Below, in pieces: positions 1-34,420 of a stretch of 64,000 nt of DNA. A program made the translations under genes and the position numbers. Origin of the DNA: Torulaspora globosa (taxonomy: Eukaryota > Ascomycota > Saccharomycetes > Saccharomycetales > Saccharomycetaceae); the NCBI RefSeq assembly GCF_014133895.1, contig NC_050731.1, forward strand, positions 186,001-250,000, given 5' to 3'. How positions within the stretch are numbered: the first letter of the stretch is position 1; each line of letters begins with the position of its first letter. A model generated the notes under the pieces. The model was not told the origin of the DNA. It was given only the letters and a program-made list of their open reading frames with translations, and ran no database searches.

Positions 1-368
1 TTAACCAAATAGAACTGCATCCATTACTGCCTGAGTTTGCCTTGGTTGATTTCTGTAAGGAGCACGGCATTGTTGTCGAAGCTTACTCGCCATTTGGTGG
101 TCAAGACGCTCCAGTGTTGGACGACAACATCATTAATCAAATTGCCAAGGACCATGGTGCTGATGCAGGCCAGGTCATTGTTAGCTGGGGTGTCCAAAGA
201 GGTATAGTCACTCTCCCCAAGTCAGTAACGCCAGCGAGAGTCGTTTCAAATCTCCAGACCTTCAAATTGTCTGATGACGAATTTAGGTCTATTAGCCAAT
301 TAACAAATAGCAAAAAGCCAAAGAGAACTAACGCCCCAGATATGTCTCCTTTCCCACTCTTTGAGTAA
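1..368 (+). CDS. YPR1/GCY1: Aldo-keto reductase, C-terminal part (YPR1/GCY1 type), cut by the window edge
   Basis: The frame is open from base 3 to a TAA at 366-368 and enters from outside the window, so only about the last 120 residues are seen. The motif NQIELHPLLPE followed by FCKEHGIVVEAYSPFG is the classic second half of a fungal aldo-keto reductase TIM barrel, and the ending FPLFE resembles the C-terminus of the yeast Gcy1/Ypr1 pair. These enzymes are cytosolic NADPH-dependent carbonyl reductases (glycerol dehydrogenase or 2-methylbutyraldehyde reductase activity). The catalytic Asp-Tyr-Lys-His residues lie upstream and cannot be checked. In S. cerevisiae YPR1 (YDR368W) is the direct neighbour of XRS2 (YDR369C), the same tail-to-tail pairing as here, which supports the assignment. 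Confidence 0.85.
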   Translation, partial: NQIELHPLLPEFALVDFCKEHGIVVEAYSPFGGQDAPVLDDNIINQIAKDHGADAGQVIVSWGVQRGIVTLPKSVTPARVVSNLQTFKLSDDEFRSISQLTNSKKPKRTNAPDMSPFPLFE

Positions 369-415
369 GCTGAGTAAAGGTTTAAATATAGAACTGAAAT
401 CTACTTCTAAATAAT

Positions 416-2743
416 TTACGAATATCTCATTCGTCTCCTAAACTTGAACTTTGGCTCATCAGCGTCGTCATCGTCATCATCATCGTCATCATCATCATCT
501 CCGCTGTCCTCGTTTTCTATATTACTAAAGCGAGCAGGGCTTCGCCTGGTGGTTGTTTTCCGCTTTCTTGTTTGCATCAACCCAGAAGTTTGCCGCGACG
601 GGAGCACATCTGCTGTTTCAGATTCTTCAGCTTGTAGGGTCTGCTCCCCTGGCACTGTGAGGTGCGCACTCTGTGAATCATCTTCATCCACCACAAAGAG
701 CTCCTGAACCGGAGTTGATCCATTCGAATAATGCGTGGAACTTGCCTGTTCAGGTGAATGATCTCGAGCTCGGTCAAGAGCAGTCCCAGAAACAGATCTT
801 TCTTTTGCAATTGGAGGGAAATCTTCGACCCTTTTCGGCAGTTCTCTGGAATATGGCTTCAGCGGTACATATTCTTTGATTAGCGAAAATGCACTTCTGC
901 GTATGAAATCTGATGATCCTTCCCGGTACTTATCACTGAAATGGTCTTTCTTATATTTTGGTTGAATTTTGAAGAAATTCTTAAAGTTTTTACGGCCATG
1001 CCACGGCGTATTATGCTCTGCAGTCTGCTCGCTGTTATCGTGCTCCCTTTCCCTCATTAAATTTTCATTGGGTCGGATAATAGCCAAATTTCCTAGTTGG
1101 TTGATAGCATCCTCAGTCAGTTCATCTGTCGAGACTTGAATCAAAGTTGAATTTAATCGCTTTACTTCGCGATTTTTGGTATCGTTGATGACTTCCACCA
1201 AGTCTTCTTTTGGCGTAGCTGCTCTGCGCGAATCATTCTCGCTTAAACTTGTATCCCGCAGCGTCCTCTGCCGTGTAGGCTGCTTCTTCATAACAACTCC
1301 ATCATCGTAAATTGGATAATTTTGCTCTTGTGAAATCTTGACTTCGTCGATCTCTCTGTCCCTAGTTCTTTCATCAAAGTTTTCTACTGGAACAGGAGTA
1401 TTAACGCTAGGACTAATCGGTTGCGTCGGTTCGCGCAAAGCTGAATGATGAACCTGATTCTCGTATGATTCATTAGCAAATGTTGGCTGTTCTTTAGTTT
1501 CCAGCGCAGAAGCGGCTCCTAAGCTCGCTGTTGGTCCAGCGTGCGCAAGGTTATCCTTCGGCGACGGCGCTTTCTTCTCTAGAGAGGGCATTGAAGTATC
1601 AGACAAGGCCTCGGACTTGAATGAATCACCTCCTGCAAAAAACATCAGACTGTCAAGGGGCTTAACTGCTCGTCTGTTGAGTCGCCTCTTCTTTCTTGGC
1701 CGTTTTTCGACATCTTGATTTGGTTCCTCAGATGTCTGGCGAGCTTGCGATGCTAGTCCCAGTTTATCGCCCGAGCTTACCTCAGGTGAGCCTTCCAAAA
1801 TTGGTGCTGCTAACGAGAAATTCGGTACTCCACCCAGCAGTTTCGCTGTGGCGTTATCTTGAACTTTCGAGACAATATCATCAAGGGTGAAAGCAATAAT
1901 ACCCGCTTGGGCCACCTGTACTGCAGATTCAGGCGACTGTATCACTACCAAATTTTGAGTGGAGTCCTCTAACTTCAACAAACCTAGCAACTCTTTCAAG
2001 GCTCCAACGCACACTAGTTCGCCGCCTCCTCTGGTAATAGCCTTCTGGGTATACTTAGTTACTTGTTCATTCCGTTCAATCATATAGAACTTCAGACCAC
2101 TGAAGACTTGCTCCAGAGTGCGGCCACTTGGCACTACCATCGTCCGTTCATTGCGGTCCAATTTACTCCAGGATTCATCGAAAGTAGCGTCTGAAGATGA
2201 CAATACATCTTTCGCACTGCATAAAAACTGCGCCGTCTTGAGCGGTATATTATGGACAAGACCAAAAAGAGACCGGTGGGCTTCATTTTCGGCCACCACT
2301 ACCGCAGTTGATCGTACATCTGCCTTTCCAACCTGCGCTTCGATTCCGAATTGGCCAAGCTCCTCCGTAAAACCAGAAAAGCTCTGCGGAATGTCCCATA
2401 TAGCATCCTTCCACGAAATATCTACCGTTATCGGCTTGGTTCCAAGCTCGATTACGACGTTTTTGTCTCTGAACAAAGATTCTTGAAAGATCATGTCCTC
2501 ACCAACTTTGAGATATTTGCCACCAGCTGCTGTCAATTTGCCCTGGTTGCTAAGGGTGATTCGCCCATTCTCCTTATTCCAACTCAGGCTGACGTGATTT
2601 CTCGATATGCTTTTATCATTCTTTATATTGAGCAAACTCTTACTGGAGCGACCAATGGTATAGGTTTGCCCGCTCTGGAGACAGCGTGATACGTTGCGGA
2701 TAGTACCATCATCTAAATCATACTTGTACCTCAGTATCCACAT
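416..2743 (-). CDS. XRS2: Xrs2/Nbs1, FHA-domain subunit of the Mre11-Rad50-Xrs2 complex
   Basis: Protein of 775 residues starting MWILRYKYDLDDG. The N-terminus is an FHA domain with the phosphothreonine-binding signature IGRSS...SISRNHVSLSW (about residues 31-55), followed by a diverged BRCT-like region. A middle motif (KKRRLNRRAVKPLDSLMFFAGG, about residues 350-371, shown in part) matches yeast Xrs2. Near residues 520-555 lies NREVKRLNSTLIQ, the Mre11-binding type segment. The C-terminus has a long acidic Asp run and then FKFRRR, the acidic-plus-FxF arrangement by which Nbs1/Xrs2 recruits Tel1/ATM. The protein acts in double-strand-break sensing, end resection, telomere maintenance and checkpoint activation. 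It is shorter than S. cerevisiae Xrs2 (854 residues), mainly in the disordered middle. Confidence 0.93.
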   Translation of the reverse strand: MWILRYKYDLDDGTIRNVSRCLQSGQTYTIGRSSKSLLNIKNDKSISRNHVSLSWNKENGRITLSNQGKLTAAGGKYLKVGEDMIFQESLFRDKNVVIELGTKPITVDISWKDAIWDIPQSFSGFTEELGQFGIEAQVGKADVRSTAVVVAENEAHRSLFGLVHNIPLKTAQFLCSAKDVLSSSDATFDESWSKLDRNERTMVVPSGRTLEQVFSGLKFYMIERNEQVTKYTQKAITRGGGELVCVGALKELLGLLKLEDSTQNLVVIQSPESAVQVAQAGIIAFTLDDIVSKVQDNATAKLLGGVPNFSLAAPILEGSPEVSSGDKLGLASQARQTSEEPNQDVEKRPRKKRRLNRRAVKPLDSLMFFAGGDSFKSEALSDTSMPSLEKKAPSPKDNLAHAGPTASLGAASALETKEQPTFANESYENQVHHSALREPTQPISPSVNTPVPVENFDERTRDREIDEVKISQEQNYPIYDDGVVMKKQPTRQRTLRDTSLSENDSRRAATPKEDLVEVINDTKNREVKRLNSTLIQVSTDELTEDAINQLGNLAIIRPNENLMREREHDNSEQTAEHNTPWHGRKNFKNFFKIQPKYKKDHFSDKYREGSSDFIRRSAFSLIKEYVPLKPYSRELPKRVEDFPPIAKERSVSGTALDRARDHSPEQASSTHYSNGSTPVQELFVVDEDDSQSAHLTVPGEQTLQAEESETADVLPSRQTSGLMQTRKRKTTTRRSPARFSNIENEDSGDDDDDDDDDDDDADEPKFKFRRRMRYS
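464..499 (-). repeat. Asp-codon (GAT/GAC) trinucleotide repeat inside XRS2
   Basis: Twelve consecutive Asp codons, a mixture of GAT and GAC, lie just upstream of the C-terminal FKFRRR motif of Xrs2. On the + strand this reads as an ATC/GTC-rich microsatellite. The mixed codons suggest some selection for Asp rather than a freshly expanded repeat, but the tract is likely to vary in length between strains. Confidence 0.85.
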
Positions 2744-2979
2744 GCGCTGTTACGCGTTTTCAATCTTCTGCTATTATGTACAGAGTGTTGTTTGCCACAT
2801 CATCTCTCTATAAGCTTACTTTGAAGTCAATGCGCAAGAATGACCCTAATGAATAATGATTCAGGAGTCCATCCAGGTAGATGGGGAGGGCAAGTTCTTC
2901 ACTATTAACAACTTGGCAGAAGGTCAAGTTCTAAATTGGAGCTTGACAGCGATGGCTCTAGCTTACGAATATATGATTA

Positions 2980-4422
2980 TTAAAAGTATGAAAATGTGAC
3001 ACCAAATGATAGGCCTGGCTTCGAAATATCCTGTAGGCGAGAAGTTAGAGGAAGCGCATAGGTGAAGTCCACATCTGCCTGAGGGGTCTTGTACGCCAAT
3101 GATACACCAGTAGCAGCCGCACATGAGCTTCTGGCGGAGCGCAGATCGTTAAAGGTATTGCCTAAATTCATGAAAAATTGAAGCCTTAACGGAGAGTCCA
3201 ATGGTGTCCTGATCAATTTCTGCGAGGATGTCAAGCAAAGCTTGTAGTAGAAATTGCTGCCTCTCAGTCCGACGCTATTAGATTGGAAGCCTTTTAGGGA
3301 GCCTAATCCCCCTAGATACCATTTATCCAGCGGGTGGATGCCATCTTTTTCATTTCCAAATGGGATGAGAGCACCCAGCTGTATATCTAAAGATTTTGTA
3401 AGCTTATTCTGCCAGTGCGAGCTGTGGTGTTGCAAGCTAAAGTGGAACTTGCTGAAGTTTCTCTCCGGTGGTAAGCTTTGATGTACGGCATTCGATTGAG
3501 AAATGATGTAGTCGTTTTGAATCTGTAACTCATAACCTGATATAGGGAACGCTCCGAAGTACTTCCTGGTATCATTGTGGAATTTCATCTCGACTGCGAT
3601 CTTGTTGAAATTTCCAGAATGTTTTGCAAATGTCTCAGATGCTTTGTCTCCTAAACCGCTTATGCACCTATTGGAAGAGGAAATACCTGCGTAGAGAGTG
3701 GGAACAGATGTCACTTGCTCCAAGATCCAACGTTTTTGCAGACCTGCACTTAACGAATACTGATATAGCTCATGGCCGTCTTCGGGGCTCAAGTATGGTT
3801 TCGAAGTCATATCCATTTTGACAGCATCTAGGTTAAGATTAGCTCTCACGGAAGGATTCTTGGTCAGTGGCACGGAAAGCAGACCCTTCAAAGATTTACC
3901 TTCCCACTTTGAAGTTTCTGGGTCGTAATTCAAACCCATATGGACGTACTCTGAATCCCCACGGCCAAACAAATTCATACATGAGCGGCTGATGGCCATT
4001 GATGCCTCGTCGTCGAATAGAGATGTAGTGCCAGCGGTGCTGTTGTACACGGCGGATGGTGTCAAAAGGATTTTAGCATGCGTAGCGAGCGGCAACTCGA
4101 TGCCAAGTTCGCTGGGAACTCTTTCACGTAGATAGTCCTGCGAACTGATATCAGGATCGCTTTCCAGGGTTATCTTGACGTCCTGGTACAGACCTGTACA
4201 CAGCAACTTTCTTCTAATATCTCCAAAAGTGTACAAACTGGATCCGACATTTTGTAACGGTTGGGTTAGTGCCTGATCGAGGATGGCCTTGTAAGAGGAG
4301 TTCGATAAGGGACTGTTGATGTTGTCGCCATCGATTGAAATTTTCGAAATGTACAAAGGCTTTGTCCCTGAGCCTTCCAACCTACTCTCCTCTAGCTTTT
4401 TGGCCAGTTTCTGATCTAGCAT
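2980..4422 (-). CDS. Divergent Sam50/Tob55-like Omp85 outer-membrane beta-barrel
   Basis: 480 residues from the first true ATG (MLDQKLAKKLEES); the frame extends a few codons further without another ATG. Length and layout match Sam50 (484 residues in S. cerevisiae): a single POTRA-like N-terminal domain (about residues 25-90), then a C-terminal 16-strand-barrel region rich in alternating hydrophobic segments and ending in FGVTFSYF, an aromatic-terminated last strand. Sam50 inserts and folds beta-barrel proteins in the mitochondrial outer membrane. Oddity: the Omp85 loop-6 signature (V/I)RGF is SLKGF here (DKWYLGGLGSLKGF), and similarity to S. cerevisiae Sam50 as I recall it looks low for two yeasts this close. 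It may be a diverged paralog rather than the essential SAM50. I see no signal peptide, as expected for this family. Confidence 0.65.
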   Translation of the reverse strand: MLDQKLAKKLEESRLEGSGTKPLYISKISIDGDNINSPLSNSSYKAILDQALTQPLQNVGSSLYTFGDIRRKLLCTGLYQDVKITLESDPDISSQDYLRERVPSELGIELPLATHAKILLTPSAVYNSTAGTTSLFDDEASMAISRSCMNLFGRGDSEYVHMGLNYDPETSKWEGKSLKGLLSVPLTKNPSVRANLNLDAVKMDMTSKPYLSPEDGHELYQYSLSAGLQKRWILEQVTSVPTLYAGISSSNRCISGLGDKASETFAKHSGNFNKIAVEMKFHNDTRKYFGAFPISGYELQIQNDYIISQSNAVHQSLPPERNFSKFHFSLQHHSSHWQNKLTKSLDIQLGALIPFGNEKDGIHPLDKWYLGGLGSLKGFQSNSVGLRGSNFYYKLCLTSSQKLIRTPLDSPLRLQFFMNLGNTFNDLRSARSSCAAATGVSLAYKTPQADVDFTYALPLTSRLQDISKPGLSFGVTFSYF

Positions 4423-15565: not shown

Positions 15566-16486
15566 ATGTATGTGATCATCGAACCGATCCAGTCGGGAAC
15601 TTTCAGCACTGTTTATAGAGCTTGGGATAGAAGAGGCCAGCGGTATGTGGCTCTGAAAGTGATACCAGCAGAGTATTATAGAGACGAGATCGAGACGATG
15701 CGGGTGTTGCGGCATCGGAACATCTGTCCGATGCTGGACTTCTATGGGGACGAGACCAATTGCATTCTGGTGCTGGAGTATTGTTCGCTGGGCGACCTGT
15801 GCGACTTCATCGAGCTATCGAGGGGGCGGGGCTACAGCGCGATCGATGTGCGTCAGATGGCGCGGCAGATCAGATCCGCGCTCTGTTATGCGCACTCGCT
15901 CGGGATCGCTCATCGGGATATCAAGCCGGAGAACATTCTGCTCACGGCGGATGGCAATGTTAAGCTGGCGGACTGGGGACATGCCGTGCAAGGCCAGTGG
16001 TCTAGCGACACAGATGTCGGCACGGACGCTTACCGGAGCCCGGAGACCTTTTTCGGGAAGAGATACGATAACTTTAAAGCGGATTACTGGTCCTTTGGTT
16101 TGACACTGCTGTATGCACTTTTCGGCAAGACACCCTTCAACTGTCCGAGAAACTGTGACGGGACAGTCGATCCATATCCTAATTGCTGCGAAAACTTTGC
16201 CAGTTTTGTCCAGGATCCTCATCAGTTCATGTATCAGTTCTATATCAAGCCATTTGTGGAATCCCCAGATGCCTCGTTCACAGGCGGCAGCGATACCTTG
16301 CCAATATCTGAAATTATCCATATATGCAGCGCCGTGGTGGAAAACCTGGTAAACATTGATGCGCGGAAAAGGAACCTTGATGAGTTCATCCGTGTAATGG
16401 AAAGGAGTTCTTCTCAGTCGACCGGATGCGCTTTTCAATCGGAGTCCTCTATAAGACTCCCGCCTTTTCTTCGGCTGAAGAGCTGA
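15566..16486 (+). CDS. FMP48: Protein kinase of the Fmp48 / Sks1-Vhs1 type
   Basis: 306 residues from the first in-frame ATG (MYVIIEP); a stop lies upstream with no earlier ATG in phase. Kinase subdomains: Gly loop IIEPIQSGTFSTVY, Lys in VALKVIPAEYY, catalytic HRDIKPENILL, a DWG in place of DFG (KLADWGH), and an SPE in place of APE. DWG is also found in the yeast Sks1/Vhs1 kinases, so activity is not excluded. The protein is almost only a kinase domain, ending in a short tail. The name rests on gene order: FMP48 (YGR052W) is followed by YGR053C and YGR054W, exactly as here. In S. cerevisiae the product is found in mitochondria; no presequence is visible here. Confidence 0.75.
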   Translation: MYVIIEPIQSGTFSTVYRAWDRRGQRYVALKVIPAEYYRDEIETMRVLRHRNICPMLDFYGDETNCILVLEYCSLGDLCDFIELSRGRGYSAIDVRQMARQIRSALCYAHSLGIAHRDIKPENILLTADGNVKLADWGHAVQGQWSSDTDVGTDAYRSPETFFGKRYDNFKADYWSFGLTLLYALFGKTPFNCPRNCDGTVDPYPNCCENFASFVQDPHQFMYQFYIKPFVESPDASFTGGSDTLPISEIIHICSAVVENLVNIDARKRNLDEFIRVMERSSSQSTGCAFQSESSIRLPPFLRLKS

Positions 16487-28784: not shown

Positions 28785-30107
28785 ATGCCTTCGTATTTGC
28801 TGAGACGTAGACTTCGACATGTTCGCTCGATAGGAATCAATAACGTATCTGCAGCCATTGAAACGAAGTCGGAAAAAGTGGTGGTGCCATTCCCAGCATG
28901 TTTCCTGGCATTGCAATCGATGAAGGGTGAAGTTTTGTACGTCAGTGAGGTGCAGCGTGGTTTCATAAACACCGTTCAGTTCAACGAGTTGCCGAGGCTC
29001 GAACACTCAATCTCTCACATAATGCTGAGGATTATGGTTAAGGTACCTGAGCAATGCGGCCTTGCAAGTGCCATGAAACGAGATAGTTGGCTTGTTTTAC
29101 GGGAGTTCGAAGTGGATTTCAATAAATTACAGAGCATAGATCTTGAGGATCAACTGGAAGGCCACAATGTACCATTATTCGAGATGAATGACGGAGTCTA
29201 TACACTGCAGTGCCAGCCTGTGGTGAAGGCTACAGCGAACGACGACGCATACTTGCGACATAGGCGCAACGCCTCACGAAATCAGGTTCAGGAGTCGTTT
29301 TCGTATAATTCAGCGCTGAAGTTGAATATCATGGTAAGTTACAAAGCACAGGTTTTGCGAGAAATCCAGGAAACATCGAAGAAGCTTGAAAATGCTATCG
29401 ACTCTAATGGGAAACACAGTCGTTGGCAGATCGACTGTGTAAAGAGACATCTCGCGGATCTGAGGCAGTCATTCACTACAAAGAACGCATATTTGCGACA
29501 GTTGGACGAGGAACTCAAGAGCAGCATTGATCAATATCACAAAACTTCGACTCCGTCTCCAGATGGCCAATCCCTTCAAGAGTACTACGGGAATAACTAT
29601 CCCAATTTGATCAAGATCAAGGACCGTGTAGACTCTTTAAAGCTGAAAAAACTGAGCCGGCTCATCAGCATTTTTCAAACCACTTGCCTGTTTCAGAAGG
29701 AGATTGGTTTTATAGAGCATGAAAGTGCATGCATGGCAGGTGCTCCATATGAGAGGACGAAACTCAAATTAGTAGACCAAGAACGCGTTCTGGCAATAGC
29801 CTTGAGGTCGGACGCCGAAAGAAATATTATCAACACATGCTTGGGTTACTATTTGCTTTTCATCCAACTTACAGCAACGACAGTCTTCCAAATTGCTTTG
29901 CCATATCGCATGAAATTTAATGGAAGTACTTCCATGGTTGGCAATGGTTGTCTTTATTTTAATGATAATTCGTCAGCAAAACGTTCCGAGGCGCAGTTAG
30001 ATGCCATCGATTGCTTCAATAAGAATTTGATCCAAGTTATTCAGCGTTGGGAACACCATGTTTTAACACGAGCTGGTGATCAAATGTCTCGGATGGAGAG
30101 CCATTGA
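28785..30107 (+). CDS. VPS38: Vps38, subunit of PI3-kinase complex II (UVRAG-like)
   Basis: 440 residues (yeast Vps38 439). The N-terminal half is C2-like; a predicted coiled coil spans about residues 190-250 (EIQETSKKLENAIDSNG..., LADLRQSFTTKNAYLRQLDEEL), followed by the C-terminal BARA-like block (LALRSDAERNIINTCLGYYLLF). Vps38 links Vps34-Vps15-Vps30 to endosomes for carboxypeptidase Y sorting. The last 71 bases of the gene overlap the end of DCR2 on the other strand. Order YLR359W-YLR360W-YLR361C is conserved. Confidence 0.88.
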   Translation: MPSYLLRRRLRHVRSIGINNVSAAIETKSEKVVVPFPACFLALQSMKGEVLYVSEVQRGFINTVQFNELPRLEHSISHIMLRIMVKVPEQCGLASAMKRDSWLVLREFEVDFNKLQSIDLEDQLEGHNVPLFEMNDGVYTLQCQPVVKATANDDAYLRHRRNASRNQVQESFSYNSALKLNIMVSYKAQVLREIQETSKKLENAIDSNGKHSRWQIDCVKRHLADLRQSFTTKNAYLRQLDEELKSSIDQYHKTSTPSPDGQSLQEYYGNNYPNLIKIKDRVDSLKLKKLSRLISIFQTTCLFQKEIGFIEHESACMAGAPYERTKLKLVDQERVLAIALRSDAERNIINTCLGYYLLFIQLTATTVFQIALPYRMKFNGSTSMVGNGCLYFNDNSSAKRSEAQLDAIDCFNKNLIQVIQRWEHHVLTRAGDQMSRMESH

Positions 30108-31728
30108 GTCTCTTCCACGTGTAAATATTGCCCTCTTTCGTGTCGAGTTGGAAAGTCCTAATACGACGTTCAGTCCCACCATATCCCGCATAACCACCTT
30201 CGCCGGCACCTCCTCCAAAGCATAGCCATATTTTCTTGGAGGTGGAATCATCTAAAAGACAGTAATCGTTACAATGGTCATGACCACAACTCGTGATATC
30301 GACACCCAAGTAATTAAGAGTATCGATGCCTCCTGAATTGTATTTCGGAGCAGTCACACCTTCCTTAAGACTGCCTACGAAAGGGTTTCTGGTGCCAGGT
30401 GACCTTCGTGAGTCAATGTTCAAGTATTCAGGCAGCGGGATGTGAAAGAATGCCATAGAAAGATGAGCACTCTCATCCTCGGAAGCAGTAAGTTTCAACT
30501 TTTGGTCGTAGGATTGTCGCAAATAATCCCATTGAGCCTCTTTTATCCAATCATATCCGGGATAAACTTTACCCATTGTCGAATACTTATGGGAGTCCAA
30601 AAAGTATAGTGTGATTAACGCATTCTTACCGTTGGAGTCAAATACCTGGTGGAAGTAATTTCCCACTCCAAATGAGTTATCGGCCGTATCTTTTGGGCCG
30701 ATGGTAAACAACGAATATGGAAGAGTTCTCGCGAGCTTCGACAATTCCCATCTGGTTAAACTTCCTTCGTCATCGTGGTTTCCCCATATCAGTGCCCAGG
30801 GAATTTTCCGCTCAATTACTGGTGCCAAAGCCTTCATAAGGCTGGTCTCGGAATCCTGGATCGATTGGTCGCCCATGATCTGATCGCCTGTGTAAACGAC
30901 CATGTCTGGTGACTCTATATCAAGTACTTTCTCAATGAAATGCATTGTCTTTGAATCAGCATCACATTCCGCATGCTTTGGATATTCATCTCTACATTGG
31001 CTCTTTCCAGTCGCGAAATGCAAGTCTGCTAGCTGAACTATCTTGAACTTACCGTCCTCCTTGACTGTCAGACGTCGCACATGGTTTGCCGATTCAGGTA
31101 ACTTCAGGTATCTGTAAGTGAGATAACTCGGAAATCTTTTGTTTTCCACTTTCCAGGACTTGTCGAGGTGCCAATCTGGTCGAGGATCCAGACAGTCTTC
31201 GCCAAACAAGACGTTTATGCCGCTCAGGATGGGCTTATCTTGACTCACCGCAGCCAAGGATAACGGCTCGAGCGATATGTGTAAGTTGTCAACCATCTTC
31301 GTTCCACCAGAGTTACCCACAGATGTCACTATATTGAAATCTCTCAAAACTTCTTCATCCAGCTCGGAAACAAACGATAACGGCAGCACATCGTAGAACA
31401 GAAACTCAGATGTTCCAAACCATCGATATCCCAGAGAGCTTTTCAGATCTTTTCGTATTATCTTTCTGGTAGTGTATGCTGTATTCACCACAGCCGCCTG
31501 TCTCGTGCCGTAGCAATGGTTCCAAAGTCTTCCAACATGGAAGCAGTCAATCTTGCCGACATTTACCACAATCTGGCTCCCCAGATCCTCTTCTTTGACG
31601 TCTCCATTGACGGACTCAGGCGTTGTACCTTGTCGCCTAGAGTAGAGGCTCTGAATGACGCATTTTAGCACCACAATCCCCAGTAAGTAGGTCAGATACC
31701 GCCAGTACCTCCTTGAAAGCCAGCGCAT
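30037..31728 (-). CDS. DCR2: Dcr2 calcineurin-like phosphoesterase
   Basis: 563 residues (578 in S. cerevisiae). A single membrane anchor lies at about residues 9-27 (YWRYLTYLLGIVVLKCVIQSL). The metallophosphatase motifs are complete: QLADLHFA, VYTGDQIMG, IWGNHDDEG and SCGHDHCND. Dcr2 dephosphorylates Sic1 to promote mitotic exit/G1 entry and acts on Ire1 in the unfolded-protein response. Its last 71 bases overlap the VPS38 coding end tail-to-tail. The C-terminal motif IYTWKRLNGSP is conserved, so the overlap is unlikely to come from a wrong stop. Confidence 0.92.
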   Translation of the reverse strand: MRWLSRRYWRYLTYLLGIVVLKCVIQSLYSRRQGTTPESVNGDVKEEDLGSQIVVNVGKIDCFHVGRLWNHCYGTRQAAVVNTAYTTRKIIRKDLKSSLGYRWFGTSEFLFYDVLPLSFVSELDEEVLRDFNIVTSVGNSGGTKMVDNLHISLEPLSLAAVSQDKPILSGINVLFGEDCLDPRPDWHLDKSWKVENKRFPSYLTYRYLKLPESANHVRRLTVKEDGKFKIVQLADLHFATGKSQCRDEYPKHAECDADSKTMHFIEKVLDIESPDMVVYTGDQIMGDQSIQDSETSLMKALAPVIERKIPWALIWGNHDDEGSLTRWELSKLARTLPYSLFTIGPKDTADNSFGVGNYFHQVFDSNGKNALITLYFLDSHKYSTMGKVYPGYDWIKEAQWDYLRQSYDQKLKLTASEDESAHLSMAFFHIPLPEYLNIDSRRSPGTRNPFVGSLKEGVTAPKYNSGGIDTLNYLGVDITSCGHDHCNDYCLLDDSTSKKIWLCFGGGAGEGGYAGYGGTERRIRTFQLDTKEGNIYTWKRLNGSPSETFDHQLVLKHGVPNAE

Positions 31729-32380: not shown

Positions 32381-34420
32381 ATGGGAGAGACTGCTGTTGA
32401 TGCCCGTTTTGTGAAGGCATTTCTGGAGAGCCTTCAATGCGAGCGCTATTTGGATAGGTTTGTTGAGTGCAGGTTGCTTACACCAAAAGAGCTACGGTTT
32501 TTGGATCGAGAGGTGCTGGCAGCACTGGGAGTGACGAAACTTGGAGACCGGCTCCGGATTCTACATAAGGCTAAACAATTGAATAACACTAAGCCGAGTA
32601 AAGAATGTGCTGATGAATTGAATGAGGTTATCAGAAAGATTGGCTCTCTCTCTACTTCTGGACCGACCAGTAACGAGGAACTGATTACGGAGAAACACTC
32701 AGTGATATTTATCCTGAACGATGGATCTGCCAAGATGGTCAACGTGAATGGATGTTTCAACGCCGACTCAATTAAGAAAAGACTTATCAAAAAACTGCCG
32801 ACAAAAGGTGAGGATGATGAAGCTTCCGCGGTGCAGAGCTACGACGTGTTTGTTGTCGATTACGTGAAAAATGTGCTCCATCTGCTTTATGACGTCGAGT
32901 TGGTTACGATCTGTCATTCTGCTGACCGCCTGGAGAAGAATCGGCTGATCTTTGTTTCCAAGGATCAGGCACCGAGCGACAAAGCTATTCTTACTTCGAA
33001 GAAACTTTATCTGAAGACTTTGAGCGCCTTGCATGCTTCCTCGTCTCAGGCAGGCGGCAGAGGACCAGTATCTGCCATCGGTTCCACACCTCATCTCACA
33101 GTGGAGAACGGTAAGGAAAAAATTCGCAAAATCTTCAACCAAAGGCCTCCCAGCGAGCTTATATCTACCAATCTGGCCGGATATTTCCCCCACGCCGATA
33201 TGAAGAGGTTGGAAAAGACCCTCAAAGAATCGTTTCGACAATCTGCGAGATTGTCAACAATCCAGGGACGAGTGCCCAGCAAGGAGTCGAATAAGGTGGG
33301 CGATATATTGCTAAACCACTCAAATGCGGTAGACTTTGCCCTGCTGCACAGTTTGGACCATCATTCCGGCCACAAGGAACAGGAGGGTTTGAAGTTGACT
33401 GGCCGTTCATCAACAAGGAAGGCTGAAAGTAGCCGCACTGAACCACAGAATGATGATCGCATAAAGCTGTGGAGCTACGACTCCGATGAGAAGGGTGAGG
33501 AAGATCCCGACAACGAAATTGTTTCGCTACCAACGAAAATGGCTACGCCGAAAACGTGGCTCAAAGGCGCCAGGATCGGGTCAGGCAGTTTTGGTACTGT
33601 GTTTCTAGGCATGAACGCTCGCACAGGTGAGCTGATGGCGGTCAAACAAGTTGAATTACAATCTAGCGCCTTTGCTGCGGGGATCGTTGGACCCCCAGAC
33701 CATAAGAACGATTTCCAGCAAGAACAGAAGCTGAAGAATGCGTCTCGCATACACAGAAAGATGATTGATGCTCTGCAGCACGAAATGAATCTACTGAAGG
33801 AACTCAACCACGACAACATAGTGAAATACTTCGGGTCTTCCCAGGAGGGAGGAAACCTAAACATCTTCCTCGAGTACGTCCCCGGTGGATCGGTCTCGTC
33901 GATGCTCAACAGCTATGGTCCGTTCGAGGAGTCTCTGATTACTAACTTCACAAGGCAGATCCTAATCGGCGTCGTCTACTTACACAAGAAAAACATCATC
34001 CATATCAAGGGTGCCAACATTCTGATCGACATCAAGGGCTGCGTAAAGATCACCGACTTTGGTATCTCTAAAAAGTTATCGCCTTTGAACAAGCTGCAGG
34101 ACAAGAGGGCATCATTGCAAGGTTCCGTCTACTGGATGGCGCCGGAGGTTGTCAAGCAGGCAGCGACCACCGAGAAGGCAGATATCTGGTCAACAGGCTG
34201 CGTGGTGATTGAAATGTTCACCGGTAGGCATCCGTTCCCAGATTTTTCTCAGATGCAAGCGATTTTCAAGATCGGCACCAGCACTACTCCAGAAACACCA
34301 TCCTGGGCGACTGACGAAGGAAAAGACTTCCTGGAAAAGACATTCCAGCTGGATTACAAGAAAAGGCCAAGCGCAGCTGAACTATTGCAACATCGATGGT
34401 TGGATACTCGAATCCTATAA
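32381..34420 (+). CDS. STE11: Ste11 MAPKKK, with the catalytic HRD Arg-Asp missing
   Basis: 679 residues from [16 protein letters not shown] (S. cerevisiae 717). Order: SAM domain (about 8-65; binds Ste50), Ras-association/CBD region (about 105-190), autoinhibitory linker, kinase domain (about 388-679). The Gly loop [12 protein letters not shown], Lys422 in [11 protein letters not shown] at Asp559 and a normal APE (WMAPEVVKQ) are present. The catalytic loop, which should read [14 protein letters not shown], reads [12 protein letters not shown]: Arg and Asp are gone between bases 34003 and 34004, an in-frame loss of 6 bases. Asp of HRD is the catalytic base, so this allele should be kinase-dead. 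Ste11 drives the mating, filamentous and Sho1-HOG MAPK cascades. Either a real loss or a sequence error; the rest of the gene looks under normal constraint. Confidence 0.95.

Follow-up and report, generated by a model that had tools for sequence, protein, structure and literature searches.

The STE11 gene of Torulaspora globosa raises the question of whether a yeast genome record may carry a mating-pathway MAPKKK that has lost its catalytic aspartate, and, if so, by what route the loss arose. The gene was analysed within a window of 64,000 nucleotides (the whole stretch of DNA studied; contig NC_050731.1, positions 186,001 to 250,000). The first-pass annotation of this window had reported a STE11 gene lacking the Arg-Asp of the catalytic HRD motif. 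The features discussed below are listed in Table 1.

The identity of the gene was examined by domain and homology searches. All three features taken as marks of a Ste11 orthologue were found, namely a Ste11-type SAM domain, a Byr2-type Ras-binding domain, and a MAPKKK-type kinase domain. The S. cerevisiae STE11 structures 1ow5 (5.1e-18) and 1x9x (1.1e-17) were the top two of three PDB matches of the N-terminal 240 residues, and they correspond to the SAM domain. The kinase domain was recognized by PF07714 (residues 398-670, 8.3e-43) and by PF00069 (best stretch 453-674, 3.4e-62), and its best PDB match in the phmmer search was human MEKK2 (9p6a, 9e-58). The genome was searched with the STE11 protein (8 contigs, 9,281,121 bases in total). 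Among the matches listed, the only full-length one was the gene itself, with no second STE11 copy; the next was a kinase in a 1454-aa frame (36% identity), which we take to be BCK1-like. A scan of viral and genome contig collections with the same protein found no relative. On its sequence, the 679-aa ORF is STE11, as first annotated. The names of the neighbouring genes in the window (DCR2, VPS38, ADE13, PEF1, and others) are our assumption from yeast gene order and carry no evidential weight. Also in the window, two ORFs that converge, 28785-30107 (+) and 30037-31728 (-), share 71 bases at their 3' ends (30037-30107).

Kinase catalytic loops usually read H-R-D-x-K-x-x-N. In this gene, the codons at 33995-34012 are ATC ATC CAT ATC AAG GGT, which encode I-I-H-I-K-G. 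The H541 codon (34001-34003) is followed directly by the I542 codon (34004-34006), and K543 comes next. The phmmer alignment with human MEKK2 and the next two alignments printed each show a gap between His541 and Ile542 that is exactly two residues long. The reading frame past the gap remains open to the stop codon at 34418-34420. The codons and the alignments thus bear out the initial observation in its position, its residue number, and its size of two residues (6 bases), lost in frame between 34003 and 34004. The genome contains a single match to a degenerate DNA pattern for I-I-H-I-K-G, at this STE11 site. The rest of the kinase core is present, as had also been noted: the Gly loop (G400 and G402), the ATP-binding lysine, DFG, and APE were all found in the kinase alignment. 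Only the HRD motif departs from what is expected of an active kinase, with both its arginine and its catalytic aspartate absent. An AlphaFold2 model of the kinase domain alone, made without an alignment, had a mean pLDDT of 33.7 and was not used.

Table 1. Positions of the STE11 features in the window, and of the frames at the WHO-like locus L075 (in coordinates of that locus).
Feature	Position	Strand	Basis
STE11 ORF, ATG to stop, 679 aa	32381..34420	+	Single full-length genome match among the matches listed
SAM domain, residues 9-67	32405..32581	+	Pfam SAM_2, 6.8e-10
Ras-binding domain, Byr2 type, residues 108-209	32702..33007	+	Pfam Ras_bdg_2 / PF14847, 1.3e-33
Protein kinase domain, residues 398-674	33572..34402	+	Pfam PF07714, PF00069; MEKK2 9p6a
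ATP-binding Lys422, intact	33644..33646	+	Aligned K in 59/61 other kinases
Junction of H541 and I542, where HRD has lost Arg-Asp (between 34003 and 34004)	34001..34006	+	Codons, alignments
Catalytic-loop remainder K543-G-A-N546, intact	34007..34018	+	K and N each 61/61 in other kinases
DFG motif, residues 559-561, intact	34055..34063	+	Kinase alignment
APE motif, residues 587-589, intact	34139..34147	+	Kinase alignment
L075, methyltransferase fragment	1-978	-	
L075, WHO-like gene	1444-3318	+	
L075, SH3 frame	3699-4313	+	

The other kinases of the genome served as a control. In the genome search with STE11, 65 of 82 candidates were scored and 63 matches were listed, STE11 included. The control set comprised 62 loci (L003-L064), among which L052 duplicates the SSK2-like L021, leaving 61 distinct kinases; the kinase at 15566-16486 of the window brought the number to 62. 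The control is thus limited to kinases close enough to STE11 to match it in this search, together with that window kinase. The HRD-type loop aspartate is present in all of them (62/62). The kinase alignment contained STE11 and 61 other kinases; L057 was omitted, as no DFG was detected in range. The alignment filter required the loop aspartate, and L057, which was the sole locus dropped, carries HRD; L039, overlooked by the HRD-type motif pattern, reads HHD. Therefore, no locus was lost for want of the aspartate.

In the alignment, all 61 other kinases have the HRD aspartate, the loop lysine, the loop asparagine, and the DFG aspartate. The same residue occurs in at least 85% of the aligned kinases at 24 columns, and STE11 agrees at 21 of these. 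Its three departures are the absent arginine, the absent aspartate, and W585 (Tyr in 52/61; MEKK2 also has Trp). Three departures as such are not unusual: exactly three were counted in 6/61 of the other kinases, and more than three in 3/61 (9, 7, and 7). STE11 stands out only because the aspartate is among its departures. The codon-usage signal per codon is 0.186 after the gap, compared with 0.130 and 0.148 before it. Since nearly all the other near-invariant columns are kept and the coding signal is not weaker after the gap, STE11 appears to carry a single lesion and no general decay. The site was chosen for its famous motif, and an in-frame deletion elsewhere in STE11 might have escaped notice; the precision of the hit should therefore not be over-read.

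One explanation is that the strain has the usual HRD and that six bases were lost during assembly or consensus calling. Ten bases upstream of the junction there is a run of five A, which could favour such an error. However, the gap is six bases long, in frame, and at no homopolymer or tandem repeat, whereas the usual long-read errors concern single bases. Indel errors also look rare in this genome, because no internal stop interrupts any of the 63 kinase matches listed. CBS764, if it is the source strain, was sequenced with PacBio and Illumina, assembled with HGAP3 and SPAdes respectively, and the available part of the report mentions no mutual polishing of the two (PMC7282813), a point in favour of an error. 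Taken together, an assembly error seems unlikely. A repeat-driven deletion was considered as well and rejected, as there is no tandem repeat at the junction. The microhomology at the junction is 0 to 3 bases, varying with the identity of the lost codons, and is little informative.

Another explanation is that the shortened loop still supports catalysis, with another residue replacing the aspartate. Lys543 and Asn546 remain, and no observation was found in its favour. There is no acidic residue between H541 and D550, the loop is two residues short, and all the other kinases collected have the aspartate. Retained activity is the least credible of the readings considered here.

Other genes of the pheromone and HOG pathways were also sought. 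Open frames were found in the genome for STE2, STE3, STE5, STE12, and two G-alpha proteins, and for a 315-aa STE50-like ORF with an RA domain. FUS3 (353 aa, 3e-188 to the solved FUS3), a second, KSS1-like MAPK (366 aa), and a STE7-like kinase (490 aa) are also open. The same holds for PBS2-like, STE20-like, and SSK2-like kinases; these three and the STE7-like kinase were named by their loop motifs, and the names are assumed. MATalpha1 is present in two identical 215-aa frames on contig C2 (L069, C2:23649-26846, and L070, C2:250111-253308), which are ~226 kb apart, with one near the contig end. The ORF adjoining one copy begins like what we presume to be SLA2, the usual MAT neighbour. The two copies probably represent MAT itself and one silent cassette, each of alpha type, and the strain is probably an alpha haploid. 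As far as the genes checked are concerned, the sexual machinery is preserved at the sequence level.

These genes also bear on the possibility that Ste11 is dead throughout the species and persists as a scaffold or pseudokinase, with Bck1 or Ssk2 acting as the MAPKKK that feeds Ste7. The rest of the Ste11 protein is preserved, and BCK1-like and SSK2-like kinases are present; these names for the candidate alternative MAPKKKs are presumed. On the other hand, no further catalytic column is altered, contrary to what might be expected for an old pseudokinase. This explanation is considered very unlikely.

Homing-endonuclease genes provide a further view of the sexual cycle. The search with PF05203 (Hom_end_hint) gave 14 matches (L071-L084) on contigs C1, C2, C3, C4, and C7. 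One of these is a VDE-like frame of 1084 aa, which, judged by its length, we take to be VMA1 with the VDE intein. A frame of 607 aa contains an HO-like 581-aa ATG ORF, and three WHO-like frames (614, 622, and 625 aa) have no stops. The remaining matches are fragments, two of them with internal stops. At L075, the WHO-like gene is flanked by a lysine methyltransferase fragment (PF10294, 3.7e-5) on one side and a Tf2-1-like SH3 frame (PF24626, 1.9e-9) on the other. A retrotransposon remnant may thus lie next to or inside the WHO-like insertion, and the methyltransferase fragment is consistent with RKM5 as the candidate host gene. At L074 (3701-4174), a WHO-like gene adjoins a frame resembling copper-zinc superoxide dismutase, a name that is likewise our assumption. 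According to the available text of one report (PMC7282813), WHO genes occur in Torulaspora and Lachancea and in Zygotorulaspora mrakii. In T. globosa, CBS764 carries intact WHO10 insertions specific to that strain at three loci (CMC4, RKM5, and MIN6), and CBS2947 carries them at two others. The HO-like, VDE-like, and WHO-like genes found here point to Torulaspora and probably to T. globosa CBS764. The same text describes VDE as homing in meiosis and expects this of WHO elements too (PMC7282813). Since HO-like, VDE-like, and WHO-like frames all remain, it is unlikely that the species as a whole lost sex long ago. These elements could also be kept if Ste11 were a dead scaffold in the whole species, with the pheromone signal passing through another MAPKKK and both the sexual cycle and the meiosis-dependent homing elements maintained, but this combination is likewise very unlikely.

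The best explanation is that STE11 carries a genuine in-frame deletion of six bases and encodes a dead kinase, as a recent and probably strain- or stock-specific loss of function (probability roughly 0.75). One lesion in a gene and a checked pathway that are otherwise preserved, with meiosis-dependent mobile elements still carried, suggests that the loss was recent and probably strain-specific. The deletion would remove the arginine and the catalytic aspartate and leave the catalytic loop two residues shorter. The Ste11 protein would still be made and may bind its partners through the intact N-terminal domains, and the mutant protein may be inert or dominant-negative. Ste7 would no longer be phosphorylated by this product, nor would Pbs2 in the Sho1 branch. 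The HRD aspartate has an established catalytic role, from which the enzyme is probably inactive; the dead MAPKKK predicted at first rests on the same reasoning. The strain, probably T. globosa CBS764, would be blocked in mating, in filamentous signalling, and in HOG signalling through Sho1, with the Ssk2 branch still working, and it is probably sterile. The SSK2-like and PBS2-like kinases retain HRD, which agrees with the earlier expectation that the HOG loss is confined to the Sho1 branch. The loss would be neutral or favoured in asexual growth.

The first-pass annotation had offered a sterile or adapted strain, an unusual pseudokinase, and an assembly error as alternatives. The first fits best, as the checked sexual genes are preserved and STE11 loss recurs in S. 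cerevisiae haploids; the pseudokinase gained no positive support, and the assembly error is unlikely in kind. If the deletion is real, the mating MAPKKK encoded by a reference genome, probably that of a type strain, is dead. Studies of mating, HO, and WHO homing in Torulaspora would then be affected where they use this strain, because homing cannot be observed in a strain that does not mate. The allele would also provide an example, in a yeast outside Saccharomyces, of a sexual pathway broken at STE11 but preserved elsewhere. If six bases were instead dropped in the assembly, the record should be corrected.

In the available text of the literature on Torulaspora and STE11, nothing about this allele was found, and that on T. 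globosa, including PMC7282813, gave no mating phenotype. One paper examined for adaptive sterility (PMC3836717) has no mention of STE11, STE12, or the mating pathway. Precedents were found in other yeasts, each from the available part of its report. Kluyveromyces marxianus strains deleted for STE11 have mating defects, and the same paper cites similar findings in K. lactis (PMC9048679). Evolved haploid cultures of S. cerevisiae yielded three independent mutations in STE11, in clones that were confirmed to be sterile; whether STE11 loss is favoured as such was left open by the authors (PMC13042299). The gene is the same as here, and a mating block is expected in both cases. However, those mutants come from selection in the laboratory and their sterility was demonstrated, whereas the present allele, found in a deposited genome, lacks two codons in frame and has a predicted effect. 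In wild S. cerevisiae, natural STE20 loss-of-function alleles lower filamentous growth and mating (PMC11460476). These are natural variants in the same MAPK module, but they are substitutions in a PAK kinase with a graded effect, and 24 of the 28 carrier strains are heterozygous. Loss of STE11 function in yeast cultures is thus a kind of event that is already known; the present case adds no new type of system and merits mention in the annotation of the strain. S. cerevisiae Ste11, human MEKK2, and the STE11 of the window share a common kinase fold and the other catalytic motifs, and the SAM domain is common to the Ste11 proteins; unlike the other two, the window STE11 lacks the Arg-Asp of HRD.
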